Shown: positions 26,714 through 58,556 of the stretch, one piece after another
How positions within the stretch are numbered: position 1 is the first letter of the stretch
How the letters are laid out: each line of letters starts with the position of its first letter
Assembly: GCF_000519265.1 (NCBI RefSeq)
Contig: NZ_KI912608.1
Location: 2,761,313-2,825,312 of the forward strand
Direction: 5' to 3'
Source of the DNA: Desulfonatronum lacustre DSM 10312
Lineage (GTDB): Bacteria > Desulfobacterota > Desulfovibrionia > Desulfovibrionales > Desulfonatronaceae
Length of the DNA: 64,000 nt
The notes under the pieces: generated by a model
The model's database searches: none
What the model saw: the letters and a program-made list of their open reading frames with translations, nothing else
What the model was told of the DNA's origin: nothing
Program-made: the position numbers and the translations under genes

Positions 26714-26756
26714 GGAGAGGTGGCTTTTTGCGAAGTCAGGATAATCATACTGTTAG
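26714..26756 (+). other. attI-like or shared insertion-site sequence upstream of a gene cassette
   Basis: 43 bp ending in the core-like GTTAGGC (26752-26758). By hand alignment it matches 47085-47127, the segment before another cassette, at about 33 of 43 positions (shared TTTTTGCGA, ATAAT, ACTGTTAG). Sequence left of the G/TT cut lies outside the cassette, so the similarity suggests that both cassettes entered the same kind of site. Confidence 0.55.
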
Positions 26757-26769
26757 GCTGCATAATCAC

Positions 26770-27336
26770 ATGCAAGAACATCTGGCTTCGGCGAACGCGA
26801 GAGCGGCTCAACTGATCTCAATAGCCGAGCAGTTGTTCGGCCCCATGAGCTCACCTTGGACGTACGCTGGAGTCACGTTTCGCGATCAGCCTCCGCATCT
26901 GTACTACTTTCCGGAGGCAACTTCGGTTCAAATCGCATTAAGTCTGCGTGCTGTTGGGGATGATCTGCAGCGAGACTTTCAGCTTTCTCACGAGGTATGT
27001 CATCTCCTGTATCCGTCGATCGACCCTATTCAGCCCGACGAGCCAAGAACAATCGTCCTGAATGAAGGTATATCGGCCTACTTTTCCGTGATTGTCGTCG
27101 CCACTGACTATGGCGACGAAGCTGCGGGGATCGCCCTCGAAAACCTGGCCACGCACTCACCCAATTACTTCAGGGCATTCAAGCTCGTGTTAGCGTTGAT
27201 GCAGCGCGATAGAGACGCAATAAAGAAGTTAAGAGCCATTCAACCGATGATCAATGAGACTGTCACGCAAGACCTGCTTGCAGCGGACCTTGGACTGACG
27301 CAGGAAGAAGCCGAAGATCTGGTTGCAATATGCTGA
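26770..27336 (+). CDS. integron-cassette protein with HExxH metallopeptidase-like motif
   Basis: 188-residue protein of unrecognised family. It contains LSHEVCHLL (about residue 77) and, about 30 residues on, LNEGISAYFS. HExxH followed by a Glu-containing helix is the gluzincin zinc-protease pattern. No signal peptide, so it would be cytoplasmic. ATG at 26770 is preferred (12 bases after the cassette core); in-frame sequence before it crosses the recombination core. The gene fills a cassette that begins with GTTAGGC and ends with an attC site whose GCCTAAC is the exact complement. Confidence 0.6.
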   Translation: MQEHLASANARAAQLISIAEQLFGPMSSPWTYAGVTFRDQPPHLYYFPEATSVQIALSLRAVGDDLQRDFQLSHEVCHLLYPSIDPIQPDEPRTIVLNEGISAYFSVIVVATDYGDEAAGIALENLATHSPNYFRAFKLVLALMQRDRDAIKKLRAIQPMINETVTQDLLAADLGLTQEEAEDLVAIC

Positions 27337-27376
27337 GGTCAACGACATCTAAGGAGTTGATGGCTGCCGCGGTGCC

Positions 27377-27448
27377 GCCTAACAAATCGTTCGAGAGGGA
27401 CGCTACGTCGGCAAGCCGACTTCGCGCCCCTCAACTCAAATGTTCCAC
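27377..27448 (+). other. attC recombination site of the cassette
   Basis: GCCTAAC (27377-27383) is the exact reverse complement of the cassette's leading GTTAGGC. It is followed by an imperfect palindrome (GAGGGACGC with GCGCCCCTC, and GTCGGC-AA-GCCGAC at the tip), then a degenerate right core GTTCCAC (27442). Folded single-strand architecture and position right after the gene are typical of integron attC sites. The right core is non-consensus, suggesting this is the end of the array. Confidence 0.78.
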
Positions 27449-41219: not shown

Positions 41220-44200
41220 TCAGTGCAGGGCCGCGACAACGCCGCCCACCGCCTGCACGGTCCGGCCTTCAGCGGCAATGTCCCGGGTCAGTTTTTCCAC
41301 CAGAACTTCCAGGGACTGCTCGTCGTCGTTCCAGATCAGGGGGCGGGAATCCTGCTGGGTATGGCCCAGGACATCCAGCACCGCCTGGTACAGGCCCGCG
41401 CCGGCGGGTGAGAGCAGGGGGCGCGGGTCGTGGCTGCCGGACATCCGGGCCGCGCGCAGGGACACGGCCTGGACCCCGAAGATCAGGGCCATGGCGGTGT
41501 AGGATTGCAGGGAGCGGATGGATGTGCGGGCCAGGACCGCGGAGTTGAAGCCCTGGCTGTTGATGTTCTGGTTGAACTGCTCGGCGTGGGTCGGGAAGCG
41601 GTCGGCAATGGGCGCGCCGTGGTAGGACAACAGGGGCATGATGGAGTTGGCCGCGATCTGCAGGCCCTTGAGCCCCATGTTCACCTTGCGCTCCGGGTTG
41701 CCCACCAGGGAGGCAGGCAGGCCGGCGTTGAATTCCGGAGCCGCGAGCAGGGCGATCTGGGTGTCCATGTGCTTGGCCGCCAGACCCAGGTAGTAGCGCA
41801 GATGGTCCATCCACACGGCCACGTACTGGCCGAGGAAGTTCCCGCTGTGCAGGCTCAGGCAGTTGTCGCCGTCAATGAGCGGGTTGTCGTTGGCCGAATT
41901 CATCTCGGTTTCCACGGCCGCGGCGGCCAGGCGCAGCCCGTCCAGCACCGGGCCCACGAACTGGGGCAGGCAGCGCAGGGAATAGCGGTCCTGGGCCGGC
42001 TGCCCGTCCAGCACCTCGTGGTGGCCGTCCAACTCGTTGCGGCACATGGCTGACCCGTCCAGGAGCCGGAGCATCAGCTCCGCGGCCAGGACCTGGCCGG
42101 GATGCGGCTTGAGCTTCTGGATGAAGGGATGAAAGGACTGGTTGGTGCCGCGCAGGGCCTGGATGACCAGGGCGTGAAAGCTCAGGCACAGGGCCGTCAG
42201 GCGGCGGGCGTCGTAAAGGCAGTTGGCCGCGATCCCGGTCATCACCGAGGTGCCGTTGACCATGCCCAGGCCCTCCTTGGGCCCCAGGGTGAAGGGCTTC
42301 AGGCCAAGGCGCTCCAGGGCCGTCAGACAGCTCACGGTTTCACCGCGCATGTCCACCTGGAAGCAGGGATCAGCCCCGACCAGGGCCCCGGCGATGGTGG
42401 CCAGGGGCGCCAGATCCCCGCTGGCCCCGATGGAGCCCATGTCCCGGACCAGGGGCGTCACGCCGTTGTTCAGAAAGAGCACGGACCGGTCAATGAGTTC
42501 CCGGCGCACGCCCGAGGCCCCGCGCAAGTGGGAATTGACCCGCAGGAGCATGGCCGCGCGCACGTCCTCCAGGGGGAGATATTCTCCGGCGCAGACGTTC
42601 AAAAAGCGCAGCAGGTTGTTTTGCAGGGCGCAGAGGTCGCTTTCGGGGATGGTCACGTCGGCCATGCCGCCGAACCCGGTGTTCACCCCGTAGATGGGTT
42701 CGCCGGTGCGCACGGCCCATTCGATGAACGAGGCCGAGGCCTCGACCCGGTCCATCACGGACCGGTCCGTGGTCAGCCGGACCGGCCTGGCGTGCCGGGC
42801 CCCGGCCACCACTTCATCCACGGTCAGCCCTTCGCCGGACAGAACCACTTCCTCGATCCGGGCGGCCTGGAGCCATTCCCGGTCCAGGGCCGCGGCCTTG
42901 GCCTGGGCGGGCCGCTTCAGCGCGGAGACACAGGCCGGATTGGACTCGATGTCGCGCAGGATCAGATCCAGGATGCGGTGCGCCCGCTGGGAATAGAGCT
43001 TGATGGAATCAGGCCCGGGCATGTCCAGGACCTTTTGCATCAGCAGGCCGTCGGTCTCGAACCAGCCCGGCAGCAGCCCGCCCAGGAAATAGCCCTGCTC
43101 GCGCAGGGCGGTCACGGCCTGGCCGCACCAGGACTCGCCGAGATTGACGAACACCTGGAGCACCCGGGCCCCGGACTTGCCGGTTCCGGCTCGGGAATCC
43201 GCGGCCAGGGCCTGGGACTCGAAACCGGCCAGGCTGCGCTCGAAATCCGGTCCCAGGGTCAGGACATGCATCCGGGCCACCTGGGCAAAGGCGAAGTATT
43301 CCGTGGAAACCCGGGTGGCGATGCCCGCCGGGGACTCGTCGTCGCCCGGCAGCACGAGGCGGTCCAGCCGGGCGTCCTGCAGCAGATAATCAACAGCTTC
43401 CTGGTAAACGGCCGGGACATGCAGCCGACGCTGTTCATCACGGGTGCGGCCGAACAGCAGGAGCGTGGAAACGCGGTCGTCCGGATGCTCCGTGGTCCCA
43501 TAGGCGGCCGCGGGCATCAGCCCGATTTCCAGGGCCGTTTCCACCAGCCCGCACATGGCCGCGAACTTCTGGGTGACCACCTGATGGCAGGGGGCCTCGC
43601 TGAAAAAGACCTCCACGCCGTGCCGGGGAATGAGCGCGTCGCGGATGAACTCCTGCAGGGCCAGGGGAACCTGGGTGCCGCGGTAGGCCGGATGGATCAC
43701 GTGGGAGCCGATTTCATAGACGCCGTGATGGGGCGCGGAGCTGCGGAACAGACTGCCGTAGCCGACGATGTCGCCGCCAGGGGTGCGGGCCACGGCGCTG
43801 TGGACCAGGCCCAGCCGGTTCTCCTCCAGCAGCCGCTCCGGGATGTAATAGGTCTCAAAGGGAAAGGAGCCGCCGAACACTTCGTAAAAGAGCCCGGCCA
43901 CGCCCCAGGCGTCGTCCATGTCGTCGCCCATGTCGCCGTCCATGCCGCCGTCCATGCTTCCTTTTGAGCGCAGCCCGTCCACGGTGAATTTCTGGCCGGG
44001 TTCGATTGTCCGGGCTTCGGCTTGCAGCCTGGACAGGGCCTGGTCCAGGGTCATGGCCACCTGCCTGGTGTCAACGGTCCAGTCGGCCAGCTTGCCCATT
44101 TCGTTCTTGGGCAGTTCCGGGCCAAAGGTGACGGCGCCCGGCTGCTCGACCCGGTACAGCCGACCGGCCAGATGGACGCGCAACGCGTCGCGCATTGCCG

Positions 44201-45272
44201 GGCCCGGCGTGAACCCGTCCTTGAGCACCACGAAGGCCTTCAGCCGGTCGCCCTCCTCCCGGCGCATCAGCCGCACCGCGCAGTCGGCCACGGCCTCATG
44301 GGCCAGCAGCGCCTCCCGGACCCGGGCCGGATAGACGTTGATCCCGGCCACCTGGACCGCGCTGTCCAGGCGCTTCTTGACGAAAAACCGGGTCTCGTCC
44401 ACCCATTCCAGGGCGTCCTGGAAGGCAAAGGGCTCGGACTGGCCGCCGTCTTCCAGATCGCGCACGAACTGGTCCTCTCCGAAGCGCTTCCAGGTGGCCA
44501 TCAGGGTCAGCGGATCGTCGGGATTGGAGCGGTGGCCCATGGCCCCGCTTTCCGAGGATCCGTAGATCTCGAACATCACCTGCAGCCCTTGGCGCTTGAG
44601 GGTGCGGATGATTTCCGGCGGACACGGTCCGGTGGACGTGACCCCGATCACCCCGGCCGGAAAACGCTCCTTGGTTTCGGAACACAGCCTCCAGATGTGC
44701 GGGAACCCGATCAACGCATCGCCCGGGGCCAGATCCTTGATGATTCGCGCGGGCCGCTTGAAGCGCAGGTCGCGGAGTTGCGCCCCCAGAACCTTGGGAA
44801 TCAGAACCGTGTAGATGAAGCCGTAAATATGGTGCGGCGGGACGAGGCCCAGAATCCGTTTGGTCCCCTGGAGCATTTCGGCCAGATGCAGGGCGTCCTG
44901 CTCCAGGAAGTAATAGTCCCGTACAATGGGCTTGGGCTCGCCGGTACTGCCCGAGGTGTAAAAGGTGATCACCTGGGGCCTGGGCCCGACCTGTTCCAGC
45001 AGATGCCCGGCCCACTGGCCCAGGGTGGCCAGCCCGCCCAGCCCGGCGTCAACCTCCCCGGTCAGTCCAAAAAATCCGCCCACCCGGGAAGCGATCAAAG
45101 CCAGCTGGTCCGGCGATGTGGCCAAAGGGTCCTGGGCCAGGGCGCTGTCCGGAGTGAGCAGCAACTCATCCCCGAACACGTCGGACGTTTTGCGCAGCTT
45201 CTTCAGTTCGGCATAGACAACGGCCCGCGTGAGATGAAAATAGTCGTCCAGGTCAAGAGATATCTGCCCCAT
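41220..45272 (-). CDS. trifunctional fusion: adenylate-forming ligase, GNAT-like region, aromatic amino acid ammonia-lyase
   Basis: 1350 residues in three blocks. (1) About 1-400: adenylate-forming ligase related to coumarate/acyl-CoA ligases, with TSGSTGEPKP at 106-115, YGSSESGAMGH at 237-247 and the catalytic-Lys motif LPKNEMGK at 387-394; the N-terminal part is short. (2) About 415-785: GNAT-like region with HPAYRG at 527-532 and GYFLGGLLPGWFETDGLL at 727-743, joined by an Asp/Met/Gly-rich linker (439-454) encoded by a short tandem repeat. (3) About 806-1350: full-length MIO ammonia-lyase with YGVNTGFGG at 861, the MIO tripeptide in GASGDLAPLA (950-952) and NSANDNPL-type NSANDNPLI. The selectivity pair is Phe-Leu (890-891), as in plant phenylalanine ammonia-lyase, rather than Ser-His of histidine lyase. 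A plausible route is Phe to cinnamate, then activation by the ligase. GGAGGA precedes the ATG. Confidence 0.85.
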   Translation of the reverse strand: MGQISLDLDDYFHLTRAVVYAELKKLRKTSDVFGDELLLTPDSALAQDPLATSPDQLALIASRVGGFFGLTGEVDAGLGGLATLGQWAGHLLEQVGPRPQVITFYTSGSTGEPKPIVRDYYFLEQDALHLAEMLQGTKRILGLVPPHHIYGFIYTVLIPKVLGAQLRDLRFKRPARIIKDLAPGDALIGFPHIWRLCSETKERFPAGVIGVTSTGPCPPEIIRTLKRQGLQVMFEIYGSSESGAMGHRSNPDDPLTLMATWKRFGEDQFVRDLEDGGQSEPFAFQDALEWVDETRFFVKKRLDSAVQVAGINVYPARVREALLAHEAVADCAVRLMRREEGDRLKAFVVLKDGFTPGPAMRDALRVHLAGRLYRVEQPGAVTFGPELPKNEMGKLADWTVDTRQVAMTLDQALSRLQAEARTIEPGQKFTVDGLRSKGSMDGGMDGDMGDDMDDAWGVAGLFYEVFGGSFPFETYYIPERLLEENRLGLVHSAVARTPGGDIVGYGSLFRSSAPHHGVYEIGSHVIHPAYRGTQVPLALQEFIRDALIPRHGVEVFFSEAPCHQVVTQKFAAMCGLVETALEIGLMPAAAYGTTEHPDDRVSTLLLFGRTRDEQRRLHVPAVYQEAVDYLLQDARLDRLVLPGDDESPAGIATRVSTEYFAFAQVARMHVLTLGPDFERSLAGFESQALAADSRAGTGKSGARVLQVFVNLGESWCGQAVTALREQGYFLGGLLPGWFETDGLLMQKVLDMPGPDSIKLYSQRAHRILDLILRDIESNPACVSALKRPAQAKAAALDREWLQAARIEEVVLSGEGLTVDEVVAGARHARPVRLTTDRSVMDRVEASASFIEWAVRTGEPIYGVNTGFGGMADVTIPESDLCALQNNLLRFLNVCAGEYLPLEDVRAAMLLRVNSHLRGASGVRRELIDRSVLFLNNGVTPLVRDMGSIGASGDLAPLATIAGALVGADPCFQVDMRGETVSCLTALERLGLKPFTLGPKEGLGMVNGTSVMTGIAANCLYDARRLTALCLSFHALVIQALRGTNQSFHPFIQKLKPHPGQVLAAELMLRLLDGSAMCRNELDGHHEVLDGQPAQDRYSLRCLPQFVGPVLDGLRLAAAAVETEMNSANDNPLIDGDNCLSLHSGNFLGQYVAVWMDHLRYYLGLAAKHMDTQIALLAAPEFNAGLPASLVGNPERKVNMGLKGLQIAANSIMPLLSYHGAPIADRFPTHAEQFNQNINSQGFNSAVLARTSIRSLQSYTAMALIFGVQAVSLRAARMSGSHDPRPLLSPAGAGLYQAVLDVLGHTQQDSRPLIWNDDEQSLEVLVEKLTRDIAAEGRTVQAVGGVVAALH

Positions 45273-46359: not shown

Positions 46360-47084
46360 GGGGTTCTTCCTTTTCAGTGCGATGGGCGATTGGCTGCGAG
46401 GCGAAAGCTTTTGGTAATTGCTCAAAAGGGCCGGGCAAACCCCCAAATTGCCTCTGCCCCTGGATTCCCGCCTGCGCGGGAATGACTGAAATGGCACGTT
46501 CTCTCAAGCTCGTCATGCCCGCGCAGGCGGGAATCCAGGTCATTTTGAGAAGTTACAGCTTTCGCCATGAACATGCCGGTTTCCGGAGGGGAAGCGGGAG
46601 TTCAATGTAATCATGCATCATCAGAAGCCGCAAGCCCCGCGACAAGTTCATACGGACTTTTGATTCCGATGCAACGGTTCTTGACTGATGGCGAAACGAT
46701 CAGGAGCCAGATACGATTGCTTCCACCCCAAATGTCGTTTAAAGGCTTCAACATTTGGTACGTTATCGGTTTCCTGAAGCCAGTACCGGATTTGACGATG
46801 CGTGATAACGTTCCGGTGGGACACTGGCCTTCAAGACCTTCGCCCATTCGGCAAAAGTGATCACGGTGTATCCATCATTTCCTCCGAGGTTGGCTTTATG
46901 CCCCGCTCTTGTGGTGAGTATTTGGCTGCCGCATAAAGCTGACTTCAGCACGAAGCATGAAGCTGACCTCGGAGTCAAGATGGATTTGGCAGACACAACT
47001 CAAGGCGCTGAAATAACGTGGAAAATTCGGACTATTCTTTCAAAAAATACTTGCCGAATCAGCAGGTGTTAAGGCCGGGAATTT
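46360..47084. other. intergenic region with a pair of palindromic repeats; no gene supported
   Basis: Contains inverted copies of a widespread 27-bp palindromic unit at 46460-46486 and 46512-46538 (CTGGATTCCCGC ... / GTCATGCCCGC ...), which together can form a large stem upstream of the ammonia-lyase operon. From about 46560 the G+C drops. Short frames on both strands (46567-46860 +, 46611-46847 -, 46763-46996 -) show no recognisable family. Confidence 0.6.
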
Positions 47085-47127
47085 GGAGGGGCGGATTTTT
47101 GCGAGTTCCGTATAATAACACTGTTAG
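47085..47127 (+). other. attI-like or shared insertion-site sequence before the second cassette array
   Basis: Matches 26714-26756 (TTTTTGCGA, TATAAT-like, ACTGTTAG) and ends in the core GTTAGAC (47123-47129) that starts the next cassette. No integrase gene is nearby. Confidence 0.55.
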
Positions 47128-47145
47128 ACAGGGGAGAAACAAGAA

Positions 47146-48195
47146 ATGCCGAATGTTCCGACGTTCATCAAGCCGTCTCGGACTGTGGACGAGGTTCAAC
47201 CGCTGTCACAGGCCGTCACAATCTTGAACAGCTTGCGTGGCGTCGAAACATCGGTGGTTCTTGACCTGAATATCCTAAACATGATGCGCAGTGTGATGTC
47301 GGGGGACAGCACACTGGACGAAGAGAATCTCTCTGGCCTTGTCGATTTCTTCAACAGCAATCCCGTTAGCATCACGCCGGGCTTCGCGTTCGGAGAAACT
47401 GACAAGGAGTATGTCACGGGACTCCGTGCTGACTACGAGAAGTTTATGTCGCGGTATTGTCCCGGATACATCGACACTCCTAACTGCACGCACGATTTCG
47501 GGAAACGAGCCAGGAGCAGAGAGTTCAAGAGGCTTGGCCGAGGCGACCGATACACTCTCGTAATAATGTACACGGCCATGTTGGCGATCCAAGTGATCAG
47601 CAAGGAGTCCCAGGGGGCGTCGCCGGAGCAAAAGTTCTCGGCATACTTGGATTTCATGAGAACCGACGCAGATATGGTTTCTGCCATTGAGGCTGAGGTG
47701 GCCAAGTACTGGTTCTTCGACAGAACCCGCGTCAGAGACGAGTCCTTCAGGTCTCGATGCAAAATAATACGCGACAACTTCAATAAAGGCGGAAAAGGGC
47801 GTGGGCGGCTGCAGTACACGTTGAACTACGCGAGAGATTTGGCCTATTACCGCTTCACGGCGCTTCAGGATGGCAAGCCGTTAGATGGCGTCGTTCAGGA
47901 CTGCTGGCTCGTGACCGCTGATCAAGCTCTCATAGAAGTCGCGAAGTCGATTTACTTCTATCCTTGCGAGGGTGAGGCCGCGAAGTTTGTTGCGCTAGCG
48001 CGTAACGAGGAGCAAGAGCACAGTGATTACTGGATATACTGTGACGAACTTTTTCAAAGCGCTGTGGTAAGGCGGCAGAGGTCGGGGAAAGCTCTCGCCC
48101 CGATGACGAAGAAGTCTTGGGAAAAGTTGTTTTCATCCCAGCGGCGCCTCGAAAATAAGGTCCTCGAATATTGGCCTGAAGAAGAAAATGTCTAA
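47146..48195 (+). CDS. integron-cassette protein, unknown; weak PIN-like features
   Basis: 349 residues, no family recognised with confidence. Features seen: VVLDLNILNMM near residue 38 and CWLVTADQALIEVA near residue 255, spacing and style reminiscent of PIN-like nucleases, plus many basic residues in the middle (KRARSREFKRLGRGDRY). No signal peptide or membrane segment. The ATG is 17 bases after the cassette core and the stop lies inside the GTCTAAC of its attC, leaving almost no free DNA, which is typical of cassettes. Confidence 0.6.
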   Translation: MPNVPTFIKPSRTVDEVQPLSQAVTILNSLRGVETSVVLDLNILNMMRSVMSGDSTLDEENLSGLVDFFNSNPVSITPGFAFGETDKEYVTGLRADYEKFMSRYCPGYIDTPNCTHDFGKRARSREFKRLGRGDRYTLVIMYTAMLAIQVISKESQGASPEQKFSAYLDFMRTDADMVSAIEAEVAKYWFFDRTRVRDESFRSRCKIIRDNFNKGGKGRGRLQYTLNYARDLAYYRFTALQDGKPLDGVVQDCWLVTADQALIEVAKSIYFYPCEGEAAKFVALARNEEQEHSDYWIYCDELFQSAVVRRQRSGKALAPMTKKSWEKLFSSQRRLENKVLEYWPEEENV

Positions 48196-48252
48196 CAAAG
48201 CCATGGAGCGCGACGGCTGCTTCGCAGCCGCGGCTCATGGCTGGCGTTGTGC
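48190..48252 (+). other. attC site of the first cassette in the 47-kb array
   Basis: GTCTAAC (48190-48196) is the exact complement of the cassette's opening GTTAGAC (47123). Inner arms AGCCATGGAGC / GCTCATGGCT and CGGCTGC-TTC-GCAGCCG form a long imperfect stem with unpaired bases, then the right core GTTGTGC (48246-48252), which opens the next cassette. Confidence 0.85.
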
Positions 48253-48302
48253 TTAAAACAAAAGTTTGACAATAATCTTAAATTTAAGGAACATCACAAA
48301 AT

Positions 48303-49847
48303 ATGTTGAAGCTAAAAGATATTTATGTCGGTGACGTTGATGCTAAGAATGAGTTAATTGAAGCATCAGATAGTGAAGCACTAAGATTTATCAAATCATT
48401 TACTGTCAATGATGGCATAGATATAGATGACTACTTCAGCGGAAAAATGTTTTTTATTACAGGATTAAAAGGGACAGGAAAAACAGCATTCCTGAGGTAT
48501 CTTTCGCTATTGGCAAAAAGAAAACATATGAACTCCTTGTTTGTACTATTTAAAAGTAACATTAAGGAAACAGACAGAGCCAAGTTAAGTAAAAATTCTG
48601 ATACAATTGTTATAGAGGAAAAGGGAAGCATAAAATATATTCAAGATTATGAAAAAATTTGGATGCTTTTTTTACACAAAACAATACTTAATCTTTTAGA
48701 AAAAACAGATCAACCTGTATTTATACATGATGATAATTGGAAGAAATATAAATATGCTGTTTTAGGGGCTGATTATGGAAACAAGGCATTAGGTGTACTT
48801 CGCTATTTCCCAACAATATCAAAGGGAATGATCAATTTTTTTATTCCAGAAGAATACAAAGATTACTTTCAAATTGATTTAGGGGAAAATAATGCAGGTC
48901 AGGTAAATTTTTCATTACTCGTTAATACAATAAATGAATTTTTCTCAAATCTTACACCATCCGAAGGAAAAGTTTTTCTTTTTGTGGATGAATTAGAATT
49001 GAATTTAGGAAGCCAAGAGCAATACAAAAGAGATATACTCTTAATTCGGGATCTAATTATCGCGGTTGAACATTTAAATAGAGAGATGGCTATTAAAAAT
49101 TTCCCTGTCAAAATTTTTTGTGCTGCAAGAAGGGAGGTCATTACAGCTGTAGATGGTATCGGAAAAGAAATTGCTAAACCAACCGAAGACTTTGGTGTTG
49201 AGTTGATTTGGAATTCAAGAATTGGTAGCGAGAACGAATCATTTGATCACCCATTAATCCAGTTAATCGCAAAAAAAATAAATGTTTCTGAAGAAATTAA
49301 AGGAATTCAATCTGATTTTGAATGTGAAGAATTAATATATAAATATTTCCCCCAATCTATCAATGGTATTCACATTACCAAATACTTGTTAGATCGATCA
49401 TGGTTCCGTCCAAGAGATTTTTCGAGAATGTTAAGACAGATTACGAAACAATATGGAAAAATGGATAAGGGGTTTACACAAGCCTGTTTCGAAGGAACGC
49501 AAAAAGCCTATGCTACAAGTAGTTGGACAGAAATCGCTGAAGAATTAGCGGCTAAATATAAAAAGGGAACGATTCGATCTGTAGAAAAACTATTCAGTGG
49601 TGTACCAAAACAATTTTCGTTTGAGGATATTCAAAAAATTGCTAAAACCAAATCAAAACACAGTAGGGATTTAGATGAATTTATCGATTCAAGAAACCTT
49701 TCCGAGCTTTTAGCAGATTTGTTTCAAATCGGATTTATTGGCAATTCAAACCCTTTCCGATTTCATTTTAGGGGGGATGCAAATCTTAATCTTGAAGCCG
49801 ATATGGTAGTGCATCGAGCTCTTTGGCCCTATTTTTCGATTATTTAA
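48303..49847 (+). CDS. A+T-rich P-loop ATPase in an integron cassette (Sll1717-family-like)
   Basis: 514 residues. Walker A GLKGTGKTAFL near residues 57-67, Walker B VFLFVDELELN near 223-233 and a C-terminal helical region (RPRDFSRMLRQITKQYGK, about 377). The arrangement resembles the Sll1717-type P-loop ATPases often found in defence or mobile islands; this family call is tentative. The gene is strikingly A+T-rich compared with everything to its left (about one-third G+C by eye), showing foreign origin. It has AAGGAA before the ATG and its own cassette ends. Confidence 0.65.
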   Translation: MLKLKDIYVGDVDAKNELIEASDSEALRFIKSFTVNDGIDIDDYFSGKMFFITGLKGTGKTAFLRYLSLLAKRKHMNSLFVLFKSNIKETDRAKLSKNSDTIVIEEKGSIKYIQDYEKIWMLFLHKTILNLLEKTDQPVFIHDDNWKKYKYAVLGADYGNKALGVLRYFPTISKGMINFFIPEEYKDYFQIDLGENNAGQVNFSLLVNTINEFFSNLTPSEGKVFLFVDELELNLGSQEQYKRDILLIRDLIIAVEHLNREMAIKNFPVKIFCAARREVITAVDGIGKEIAKPTEDFGVELIWNSRIGSENESFDHPLIQLIAKKINVSEEIKGIQSDFECEELIYKYFPQSINGIHITKYLLDRSWFRPRDFSRMLRQITKQYGKMDKGFTQACFEGTQKAYATSSWTEIAEELAAKYKKGTIRSVEKLFSGVPKQFSFEDIQKIAKTKSKHSRDLDEFIDSRNLSELLADLFQIGFIGNSNPFRFHFRGDANLNLEADMVVHRALWPYFSII

Positions 49848-49942
49848 TTGAAAATTATCCTTGTCCAAAGTTTTGTAGCCAATTGAGTACATGTGTTATC
49901 TATCCGCAGAGTTAGAAAATTAATATACTATCGGACAAAATT

Positions 49943-50002
49943 GTACAACAAACGGGTCAACGCGGACTCGCTTAAGCTCGCCGGTTACCCTACACGTTAG
50001 CG
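49943..50002 (+). other. attC site of the ATPase cassette
   Basis: GTACAAC (49943-49949) matches the complement of the cassette's leading GTTGTGC at 6 of 7 positions. Arms GGGTCAACGCGG / CCGGTTACCC pair with two bulged bases around a GCTTAAGC tip. The right core GTTAGCG (49996-50002) opens the following unit. Confidence 0.8.
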
Positions 50003-50024
50003 CTCAACATACAGGGAGTCTTGG

Positions 50025-50960
50025 TTGATCGATTTCATTCTGGAAAATAAAGAATGGTTATTCTCCGGTGCAGGAGTGACTGCCATATTGGTAGTTGGAG
50101 GCTGGCTATTTAAGCATTCAAGATCGACGCCAACTGCATCCCAGCCAAACCTAACGTCAGCGGTGCGGGTCGCTCTCGTTCAAGCCCAGCTTCCACCTGC
50201 AAAAAACATTCTACCGAACTCCGAGGTCGCGAGCATCGTTATGAGGTTTAATCAGGTTCTCGATCTGATGAACGAGAAGAGAACTTATGGTAAATACACC
50301 ATTGCTGGCTTGGCACAGCTGATGAAAATTCACTCCGTTGGCGAGCTGGAAAGTGTGTTTCTTGGTAGTCAAGAACCATCATTTGAATTTATTGACCATT
50401 TCTGCGATACATTTGGGGTTAATAGGAACTGGCTTATCGAGGGAAAGAGTGCACCTTTTACAGGGCTTGAAGAAACACATTACGATCCGCTGGAATATTT
50501 GGAAGAAATCGAGACTCTGGCGCCAAACAGAATCTACTTCATTAGGTCGGCATCGGAGATGGGGGAAGTCTTTCTGCTACTTAAGTTTTTCGATCATAAG
50601 TACAGGATTGTTGACCGAGTCTGGCACATTAGTGACCATGTTGGCGCTGGCGGTCAAAGTCAGATATTCGGAATGTATCGGCTAATATTGGCGCTTCAAA
50701 AGAGTGGACTCAACACCACCTGTGGCGGGAGAATTCTGCCGAAAGATAAGTTCAACGATCTTCTCAGTGGCAAGGTGTTTCCAGGATCGATAATCGATTT
50801 TCCAGCGCAAGAAAATCCATGGTGGGATGATTTCGTTGATGTTCACCATAAATATCCGATTTCATCAAGCTATGAGTCCCGGTACGGAAAGGGGTTCATG
50901 GCCGCCCAATCAATAGTTCGCTGGAAACTAAAGGAGAAGGGCAAAAAGGGACATCCATGA
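50025..50960 (+). CDS. membrane-anchored protein with XRE-like helix-turn-helix; probable third cassette gene with altered end
   Basis: 311 residues. One transmembrane helix (residues about 12-29), a low-complexity Ser/Pro/Thr stretch, then an XRE-like DNA-binding region (YTIAGLAQLMKIHSVGELESVF, ending FGVNRNWLIEG, about 88-143). The C-terminal half is unrecognised. TTG start at 50025 with CAGGGAG upstream. The cassette core ahead of it (GTTAGCG) has no matching CGCTAAC after the gene; instead the last codons (GKKGHP) come from a dispersed repeat starting at 50939, so the original 3' end and attC seem lost. Confidence 0.6.
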   Translation: MIDFILENKEWLFSGAGVTAILVVGGWLFKHSRSTPTASQPNLTSAVRVALVQAQLPPAKNILPNSEVASIVMRFNQVLDLMNEKRTYGKYTIAGLAQLMKIHSVGELESVFLGSQEPSFEFIDHFCDTFGVNRNWLIEGKSAPFTGLEETHYDPLEYLEEIETLAPNRIYFIRSASEMGEVFLLLKFFDHKYRIVDRVWHISDHVGAGGQSQIFGMYRLILALQKSGLNTTCGGRILPKDKFNDLLSGKVFPGSIIDFPAQENPWWDDFVDVHHKYPISSSYESRYGKGFMAAQSIVRWKLKEKGKKGHP

Positions 50961-51212
50961 TAAGAAAGTCAAGTGGGAAGATGGAGATTCCCTGAACATC
51001 CCGGTTTGAGAATTCCGGGTGTTATGAAATGTTGCCCGCAGCCGACGATTTTTTCTCTAGCTTGGGTCGAGTTTGGTTACCGACCAGACATCCATTTGCA
51101 GCATGAGGCTGGGAGATATGGCTCTATGCCCCTCCCTTGCGGAAATAGCCTTCGCTGAAGAGTAAGTTTGGGTTAACCCTGCCGGCCTCGAAACAGGCTT
51201 ACAGAAGCATCA
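50939..51212. repeat. 273-bp structured repeat, copy A
   Basis: Starts GGGCAAAAAGGGACATCC and ends ACAGAAGCATCA, with conserved blocks GAGTTTGGTTACCGACCAGA, GATATGGCTCTATGCCCC and GGGTTAACCCTGCCGGCCTC. Copy B is at 56669-56941 in the same direction. Conserved blocks contain small hairpins (GTTTGGT/ACCAGAC, GGGTTAACCC), suggesting a structured RNA or DNA. No coding capacity. The opening motif recurs at 51240-51256. Confidence 0.75.
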
Positions 51213-51373
51213 TGGCAAGTGCCATTCGCATAGGCAAAAAGGGCAAAAAGGGACATCCATGATAAGCAAGTCAAAAGGGGAAAAAAGGGACAGGCTAAAT
51301 ATGCTTGACAGGCGCGGATATTCACGTTTACTTTCACTTTCACCTGCCAACTCAAGACCTCCCGGAGGAGAGC

Positions 51374-52297
51374 ATGGGACGCATAGCCAGATTTGTACGA
51401 GATGACCGACCTACCATCTATCACGTCATGTCCAGAACGGCCTTGGACGGCTTTCCATTGCAGGACGTCGAGAAGGACCGCCTCATGGCCATTGTGGCCA
51501 GGCTTTGCAAATTCTATTTTGTGGATTTGCTTGGGTTTTGCCTGATGGGCAATCATTTTCATCTGGTGGTCAGGATGCACACCGAGGAAGCGGCTACGGA
51601 TGCGGAAATCGTGAAGCGATTCAAGAAGCAGTTCGGGGAGGATGCCGTAATCTTGCCGCACCAAGTACAGGACTATCGGCGGCGGCTGGTTAATTTGGGG
51701 GCCTTCATGAAGGATATCAAGCAGGGTTTCACCCGGTATTTCAACAAACGCAGAAACAGAAAAGGCTTTTTCTGGGGCGATCGGTTCAAGAGTCTGATTG
51801 TCCAAGAGGGCGCCAGCCTGGTCAATTTGCTGGCCTATGTGGACCTTAATCCCGTCCGGGCCGGTTTGGTGCAGAAGCCCGAGGACTACCGCTGGTCCGG
51901 CCTGGGATATCTGGTGCAGCGAGGGAACCGGGACGGTCTGCTTGATCTGGACCTGGGTTTGAAGGAGTGGAATGAGCTTGAGCCGAAGGAGATCGTCCGA
52001 AAATATCGACAGTTCGTCTATGAAACCGGAGCTATGGACACCGGCAAGGGCAAGCAGCTCAATCCGGAAATTGTCAAACGCGAACGGAAGAAGGGCTACA
52101 AGCTAAGCCGCACCGACGTCTTCCGCCACCGCTGTCGATATTTTACTGATTCCGGCATCATCGGCTCCAAAGAGTTCGTGTCCGAGGTGTTCGACGGGGT
52201 AAAGCACCTGCTGGATTCCAAGGATGAGAGGAGGTTCACGCCGGTTGGCGGGATGGATGGGGTGTATTCGATGAAGCGGTTGGGGGCTGGGGGGTAA
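51374..52297 (+). CDS. REP-associated tyrosine transposase (RAYT, Y1 transposase), intact
   Basis: 307 residues. Y1 transposase core: YHVMSRTALDG (about 20-30), GFCLMGNHFHLVVRM with the HUH pair (about 54-68) and the catalytic Tyr in GFTRYFNKRRNRKGFFWGDRFKS (about 117), followed by LLAYVDLNPVRAGLV. The C-terminal extension is basic. GGAGGAG precedes the ATG at 51374. A 110-bp copy of its upstream region and first 14 codons is found at 61735-61844. RAYTs are domesticated relatives of IS200/IS605 transposases linked to REP-type palindromes. Confidence 0.88.
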   Translation: MGRIARFVRDDRPTIYHVMSRTALDGFPLQDVEKDRLMAIVARLCKFYFVDLLGFCLMGNHFHLVVRMHTEEAATDAEIVKRFKKQFGEDAVILPHQVQDYRRRLVNLGAFMKDIKQGFTRYFNKRRNRKGFFWGDRFKSLIVQEGASLVNLLAYVDLNPVRAGLVQKPEDYRWSGLGYLVQRGNRDGLLDLDLGLKEWNELEPKEIVRKYRQFVYETGAMDTGKGKQLNPEIVKRERKKGYKLSRTDVFRHRCRYFTDSGIIGSKEFVSEVFDGVKHLLDSKDERRFTPVGGMDGVYSMKRLGAGG

Positions 52298-57153: not shown

Positions 57154-58185
57154 TTATGCTGCCATCTGCTGCTCCCTGTAGGCAAAGGGCTTTTCGCTTT
57201 TATCTACGGCCAGCAGGTAGGCCACCAGTTTTCTAGCCACGGCCAGGGTAGCGGTATTTCGATGTGCCTTGACCAACATGGCTTTGTGGACCTCGGCCAA
57301 TTGCTCGTTCCAGAGAGGAGCGATCTTGGCGGCTTCGATCAAAATGCACTGCAGGTGTTTGTTGCGTTTCTTGGAAATTGGGCCGCGCGAGGATTTCCCC
57401 GCGGATTCTTTTTGGGCGCTGCACAATCCACAATAGCTGACCGCCTGGGTTACATTGGAGAAACGATTGTGATCGCCAATTTCCAATACCCAGGTCAGGG
57501 CCAAGATCTCACCGACTCCAGGAATGGTCATCAAGCGTTCAACACGTTCCCTGATGGCTGTGTGCCCACGCAACACGGAGATCAATCTTTTCTGGGCAGC
57601 CTTGAATAATTCCAAATTTGCTCTGCTCATTTTCAGCAGGTTGATCACGGATTCCGGCACCTCCTCAACTTTTTCGAGGTACTGGTGAAAATACTTTTTT
57701 CCGTGAATCCGCTGTTTGTCGTATTGGGCGCCGACTTCCATCAACAGACCTGAAATTTTGTTTTTGGTTTTTACGCCCATACGCATGACAAAATTGCGGT
57801 AACGCATGATTCTGCGCAACTCCCGTGTTTGTTGAGGAAGCATATAGCATTCCGGCAACAAATTGGTTCGGAGCAAATCGGCAAGTATTGCGGCATCCAC
57901 CCGGTCGTTTTTCTTTTTTCCGGCAATTATGGCCTTGAGCATCTCAGGGTGGGCAACCTTGAGCTCAACTGCATGAGGTTTGAGATGGTCATAAATCCAT
58001 CCTGTAAACATGGTGGCCTCCATTGCCCCGATCCAAGGCGTCGTAAATGTCTTCACCCAATCATTGATTGATTTTCTCTGAGAGGGAATAAAACCTTCCT
58101 TGATAATCTTCCCGGCAACGTCTTTGATGCAATAGGCGATTTTCCTCTTGTGAACGTCGAGTCCGATATAGTACAAGTTTTCCAT
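57154..58185 (-). CDS. IS110-family transposase (DEDD recombinase)
   Basis: 343 residues. N-terminal RuvC-like DEDD fold: Asp in YIGLDVHKRK (about 8), Glu in GAMEATMFTGW (about 55) and the Asp pair in KNDRVDAAILADLL (about 90-98). The C-terminal Tnp20 domain has IPGVGEILALTWVLEIGD and the serine-containing GPISKKRNKHLQ. Intact and full length. ATG at 58185 preceded by GAGGAGGG. Element ends are not obvious, as usual for this family. Confidence 0.92.
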   Translation of the reverse strand: MENLYYIGLDVHKRKIAYCIKDVAGKIIKEGFIPSQRKSINDWVKTFTTPWIGAMEATMFTGWIYDHLKPHAVELKVAHPEMLKAIIAGKKKNDRVDAAILADLLRTNLLPECYMLPQQTRELRRIMRYRNFVMRMGVKTKNKISGLLMEVGAQYDKQRIHGKKYFHQYLEKVEEVPESVINLLKMSRANLELFKAAQKRLISVLRGHTAIRERVERLMTIPGVGEILALTWVLEIGDHNRFSNVTQAVSYCGLCSAQKESAGKSSRGPISKKRNKHLQCILIEAAKIAPLWNEQLAEVHKAMLVKAHRNTATLAVARKLVAYLLAVDKSEKPFAYREQQMAA

Positions 58186-58556
58186 GGAAGCCCTCCTCTG
58201 GTTGTGATTCTGGGCGAGCATGTTCTCGTCCCAGCAGAGCCTTGAGCCATTTCATACCACGGGGGCTTCTTTCCTCCAAGTACCTGTTCTTATACATTTA
58301 AACAGGCTAAATATGCTTGCTACTCGCTACGAAAAACTAGCTGCCACTTTTCTCGCGATGGTACAATCGCATCGCGCATCTGTGGCTGATAATTTTGAAA
58401 CAGGCTCTAAAAGAGAATGCTCGAACAAATGTATGTAGATTAAGCTGTATTACAAGGAGCTGCTGCCGGACAATTTTCGCGCTATGCTACAAAATTGCCG
58501 CAGAGCGCGACGTTCGGCGCCATCATCACATCACCGATCCAACAGTGGAGGTTAGG
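58186..58556. other. IS110 left flank and GH1 leader; no gene
   Basis: Non-coding. Contains a small AACAGG/CCTGTT inverted repeat near 58286-58307 and the phrase ACAGGCTAAATATGCTTG (58304-58321), which also occurs before the intact RAYT (51290-51307) and marks RAYT-related repeats. The IS110 outer end probably lies here. No clear promoter seen for the GH1 gene. Confidence 0.5.

Follow-up and report, generated by a model that had tools for sequence, protein, structure and literature searches.

The cassette array at 47123–50002 of the analyzed window (the whole 64,000-nt stretch, bases 2,761,313–2,825,312 of the complete 3.76 Mb chromosome of Desulfonatronum lacustre) is very probably a sedentary chromosomal integron that has lost its integrase gene, intI, by deletion, and one of about seven dispersed attI platforms, all now without intI, that an IntI acting in trans would have served in the past. 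The features of the locus, and of a second platform in the same window, are as follows:

26739–26758, plus strand: second, diverged attI, with core GTTAGGC at 26752–26758
26770–27336, plus strand: cassette gene of the second platform, 188 aa
27377–27448, plus strand: attC of the second platform (model R1, 36.6 bits, E = 8.9e-7); its GCCTAAC pairs 7/7 with GTTAGGC
46630–46672, minus strand: stub of the deleted intI 3' end, coding for GIKSPYELVAGL...
46679–47105, plus strand: conserved, multicopy intergenic region between intI and array, matching the intI–attI interval of G005:C4 and other platforms
47106–47129, plus strand: attI TTCCGTATAATAACACTGTT, with core GTTAGAC at 47123–47129
47123–48245, plus strand: cassette 1, opened by GTTAGAC (47123) and closed by GTCTAAC (48190), 7/7
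47146–48195, plus strand: cassette 1 gene, 349 aa, with its stop codon inside attC 1
48190–48252, plus strand: attC 1 (R1, 40.1 bits, E = 1.3e-7; fold z = -4.4)
48246–49995, plus strand: cassette 2, opened by GTTGTGC (48246) and closed by GTACAAC (49943), 6/7
48303–49847, plus strand: cassette 2 gene, 514 aa, P-loop ATPase of the Sll1717 family
49943–50002, plus strand: attC 2 (R1, 18.0 bits, E = 0.031)
49996–50938, plus strand: cassette 3, truncated, opened by GTTAGCG at 49996
50025–50960, plus strand: cassette 3 gene, 311 aa, with a homologue annotated as helix-turn-helix regulator
50939–52297, plus strand: REP/RAYT (IS200-like) element (NF047646, PF01797)

These positions bear out the two complete cassettes, and the third opened by GTTAGCG, that the first-pass annotation had delimited by the core rule. 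The palindromes of 60–63 bases it had seen starting at the closing cores measure 63 and 60 nt, and the three genes do fill their cassettes. Among them, the cassette 1 gene had no Pfam, NCBIfam or PADLOC matches, the cassette 2 gene matched NF047389 (E = 1e-75, 255.6 bits; cut-off 75), and the cassette 3 gene shares 45% identity over 305 columns with a cassette-borne gene of Vibrio parahaemolyticus. Cassette 3 has neither closing core nor attC, as a plus-strand search downstream found no CGCTAAC; the REP/RAYT element truncates the array here, encodes the final residues of gene 3 and has removed the attC. GC content is 28–54% across the cassette stretch vs 61–69% immediately to its left.

As an Rfam scan of the window gave no matches, we built our own covariance model, R1, from 10 attCs of annotated plasmids, none of them from the D. 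lacustre genome. An alignment that included long Vibrio attCs (A1) misplaced their arms and was replaced by A2, and two simple attC pattern scans returned nothing or mostly chance palindromes. Within the window, R1 found attC 1, attC 2 and the third site at 27377–27448, so that the covariance search suggested by the first-pass annotation recovered both attCs it had proposed. Across the genome, the same search gave at least eight matches at E ≤ 1, a lower bound because scoring covered 150 of the 2,080 first-look candidates; seven of the eight sit 0.6–7.3 kb downstream of an attI on the same strand. The match at G000:C1:1751092 was counted as false, as it lies in a chemotaxis-receptor gene (judged by eye) with no attI pattern nearby. 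Folded as DNA, attC 1 is far more stable than its shuffles (z = -4.4; 0 of 200 shuffles as good), and attC 2 is not (z = +0.8; 155 of 200 shuffles as good); since attC 2 fails this measure, we did not accept folding energy as sole evidence. The R''/R' and L''/L' arms with an extrahelical base are recognized through R1, weakly so in attC 2. When core pairing and a hairpin were both required downstream of attI cores, 7 of 19 cores qualified at 7/7 pairing and 11 of 19 at 6/7 or better, compared with 3 and 18 of 600 random GTT sites, respectively. The 19 cores come from all species examined (the genus and one outgroup), after skipping 3 of 22 copies that lacked a GTT or right-hand sequence.

The left end of the array, which the first-pass annotation had missed together with the second platform (26739–27448), identifies the locus more closely. 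A repeat of ~450 bp precedes GTTAGAC, and all of its copies whose core is intact terminate at that core. Its homologues adjoin an intact, divergently read intI in G005:C4, G006:C18 (where the attI core is degenerate) and G008:C9, of which G008 belongs to another family. Judged from its sequence, the ~450 bp left of GTTAGAC is thus a true attI. The 43-nt stub to its left matches the 3' end of the G005:C4 intI at 95% identity, and a tblastn search with IntI residues 311–362 matched it at E = 1.8e-5. Because the stub directly abuts the upstream region that begins at 46679, we conclude that intI was deleted in the window; and since the attI homologues adjoin intact intI genes while the stub persists, the locus is an intI-deleted integron and not a stray cassette cluster.

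The exact 20-base attI motif occurs in six copies in the genome (465394+, 1045513+, 1099186+, 2529449+, 2808418+ and 3491314-), of which 2808418+ is the window platform; the diverged attI at 26739–26758 marks the seventh platform. A further candidate attI, at 2,685,748, is followed by no cassette and was left out of the count, and L088 (Bacteroidales) was discarded as a chance match of the attI pattern. First-cassette cores pair 7/7 at five platforms (window, 26752, 3491314, 1045513 and 2529449, where pairing relies on an attC at L089 8007–8077 with a broken R' core) and 6/7 at two (465394 and 1099186). Platforms 2,529,449 and 1,045,513 fail the strict pairing-plus-hairpin rule and pass the looser pairing rule or the covariance model. 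A TIGR02249 profile search of the complete chromosome found no integron integrase, extending genome-wide the absence that had been reported for the window; five sub-threshold matches (best 82.5 bits, cut-off 265) fall on two Xer-like genes and one other recombinase. An intI may be carried on a plasmid missing from the assembly.

Deletion of intI is directly visible at only two of the seven platforms, the window with its stub and 1,045,513. The left flank of the latter is 89–93% identical to that of G005:C4 over about 4.5 kb, and G005:C4 and G001:C116, which are orthologous to it, retain intI; in D. lacustre, ~0.28 kb (L092 5211–5487) replaces a ~1.17 kb intI-bearing stretch (L028 11876–13045). 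In G004, matches to this flank fall on contigs (C11 and C8) where no attI was found.

The sister species G004 carries the window locus with the same flanks, 96.8–98.1% identical on the left up to the core and 98.6% on the right from the REP/RAYT element onward. Between them lie four other cassettes, with core pairs GTTAGGT/ACCTAAC, GTTCTGT/ACAGAAC, GTTAGGC/GCCTAAC and GTTATGC/GCATAAC, all 7/7. The last G004 attC is cut at R' by the same REP/RAYT element, which ends the array there as well, and RAYT/REP sequences also stand at the array ends of other G004 platforms. A search of G004 gave no integrase match at E ≤ 1e-30. Since the flanks are the same and the four cassettes are different, the array did turn over; the first-pass annotation had named identical flanks without cassette turnover in relatives as an observation that would speak against it, and the opposite is found.

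Several other explanations deserve consideration. Homologous recombination between platforms, instead of IntI, could have exchanged the arrays at the shared locus, as attI repeats on the left and RAYT elements on the right supply two-sided homology at several platforms. Such exchange would move arrays without creating a 7/7 opening and closing pair for each cassette, and the four cassettes of G004:C3 occur at none of the other platforms compared by DNA, which makes this route improbable. It is unlikely, though a serious contender, that the platforms spread as a mobile, attI-bearing segment from which intI was already missing, so that most copies never included this gene: their ~440 bp repeats resemble one another at every site, and the signs of a lost intI are confined to the two D. 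lacustre copies described above. Against this stand the stub retained in the window, the intI fragment retained at G005:C23 and the ragged left ends of the copies, which share no fixed end; these ragged ends led us to abandon a mobile element of fixed termini as an explanation. Finally, an IntI active elsewhere could have inserted the cassettes off-target, into attG-like sites, to give an ordinary CALIN (a cluster of attC sites that has no integron integrase). Cury et al. proposed off-target insertion as a route, according to the available text of PMC8618304, and an array that has no integrase nearby is in keeping with it. We consider this explanation very improbable, as it is contradicted by the insertion point, a conserved attI that adjoins intI in three relatives.

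By the established mechanism, IntI inserts a circular cassette at attI through its folded attC, with the crossover between G and TT, and the cassettes of a D. lacustre integron with a deleted intI would have entered in this usual way. An IntI encoded at one platform, or brought in, would then have served all platforms in trans, and later deletion of intI would have frozen the arrays; we infer this service in trans, the order of events and the present inactivity. The first cassette would adjoin whatever promoter the attI region holds. A promoter scan for Pc found 6 candidates vs 6.7 expected from shuffles; a TATAAT was noted in attI by eye.

The scatter of about seven platforms over one chromosome suggests a past in which one integrase supplied many docking sites simultaneously. 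G005 has one platform with an intact intI and one (C23) with an intI fragment, and its C4, C8 and C17 share the same first cassette, which is ~170 bp long and gene-less. Among these three loci, the attIs are 75–82% identical and the first cassettes 93–98%, as would fit one integrase serving many attIs in trans. The copy at C23 shows little or no such excess (cassette 82–85%, attI 74–83%), attI and cassette identities are about equal or little different in cross-species pairs, and no whole cassette is common to two platforms within the D. lacustre genome. The case for traffic in trans, made from sequence identities, therefore concerns one short gene-less cassette in one genome, G005. This cassette (L028 13824–13995, L102, L100 and L105) contains a perfect hairpin, GTTCCCGCGACGCnnCCGCGTCGCGGGAAC, and is present in up to three copies per G005 array, its cores almost back to back. 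In a tree of attI copies, some loci cluster with those of other species (G001_C1 with G005_C4, and G000_1099 with G007_C57); the window and G004_C3 are nearest by identity (91%), without firm tree support.

The usual description of an integron pairs a single integrase with a single, adjacent attI. We tentatively propose, at somewhat less than even odds, a distributed integron in this Desulfovibrionales lineage, in which one trans-acting IntI serves many scattered attI platforms, so that cassettes would be captured at many loci at once and the seven docking sites here could be reused by any incoming IntI of the lineage. Our search of the open-licence literature turned up no report of genomes with several attI platforms.

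The locus resembles sedentary chromosomal integrons, such as the Vibrio superintegron, in its attI, attC hairpins, core-pairing rule and head-to-tail cassettes of unrelated genes, and the cassette 3 gene has its homologue in a Vibrio array. It differs in that D. lacustre lacks intI and has short arrays at many sites instead of one long array. Measured against a complete integron, it has an attI beside the first cassette that is conserved with intI-bearing relatives and complementary cores (7/7 and 6/7 in the window, four of four at 7/7 in G004), and only the 43-nt stub for an intI gene. The first-pass annotation had called the array CALIN-like. This holds insofar as the cassettes lack an integrase, which is absent from the whole genome, and attC 1 and attC 2 reach the threshold of at least two attC sites given in the text available from PMC9024848; it falls short in that the window keeps a recognizable attI and an intI stub and is one of seven platforms in the genome, each with its own attI.

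For CALINs in general, off-target insertion, intI loss or rearrangement are given as possible origins (Cury et al., as cited in the available part of PMC8618304). In Xanthomonas, an ancestral platform has likewise lost intI, and CALINs occur at seven loci across species; intI there is at one locus beside ilvD, and attI copies elsewhere are not described in the available sections of PMC12444791. One survey lists no complete integrons among its Desulfovibrionaceae (PMC11434368, in the portion available). According to the accessible text of PMC9024848, IntegronFinder 2.0 detects no attI outside class 1 integrons, so platforms such as these would appear in its output as single attCs or as CALINs with no relation to one another, and one with a lone attC, such as that at 27377, would fall below its default threshold of two attCs. 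Seven attIs without an integrase, alongside relatives that retain the enzyme at one of these platforms, give a direct view of CALIN origin by intI deletion and offer a natural system for testing whether one IntI runs many capture sites.

Many cassette genes look like defence or toxin-antitoxin genes by sequence resemblance. From the other platforms, 20 proteins were searched in Pfam and 10 of these in PADLOC. The cargo includes a restriction enzyme and a methyltransferase, two AAA ATPases matching PDC-S59 and an FRG protein matching PDC-S15, as well as RES, HEPN/DUF4145, PIN, NYN-LOTUS and Schlafen-type AlbA_2 proteins, the last encoded beyond the region of confidently traced cassette borders. 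The type II restriction enzyme and methyltransferase (L089 6007–8009) form the first cassette of platform 2,529,449.

Elsewhere in the window, 41220–45272 encodes a 1350-aa protein in which an AMP-binding ligase (closest to the 4-coumarate-CoA ligase model) is fused to an aromatic amino acid ammonia-lyase, and an IS110-like transposase, recognized by eye, lies at 57154–58221, close to where the low-GC region ends on the right. Upstream of the window attI, a 20-bp motif, GCATAAAGCTnACCTCGGAG, occurs at 46882–46901 (minus strand) and 46955–46974 (plus strand), giving one inverted and one direct copy; it is conserved upstream of attI copies and is perhaps an operator.
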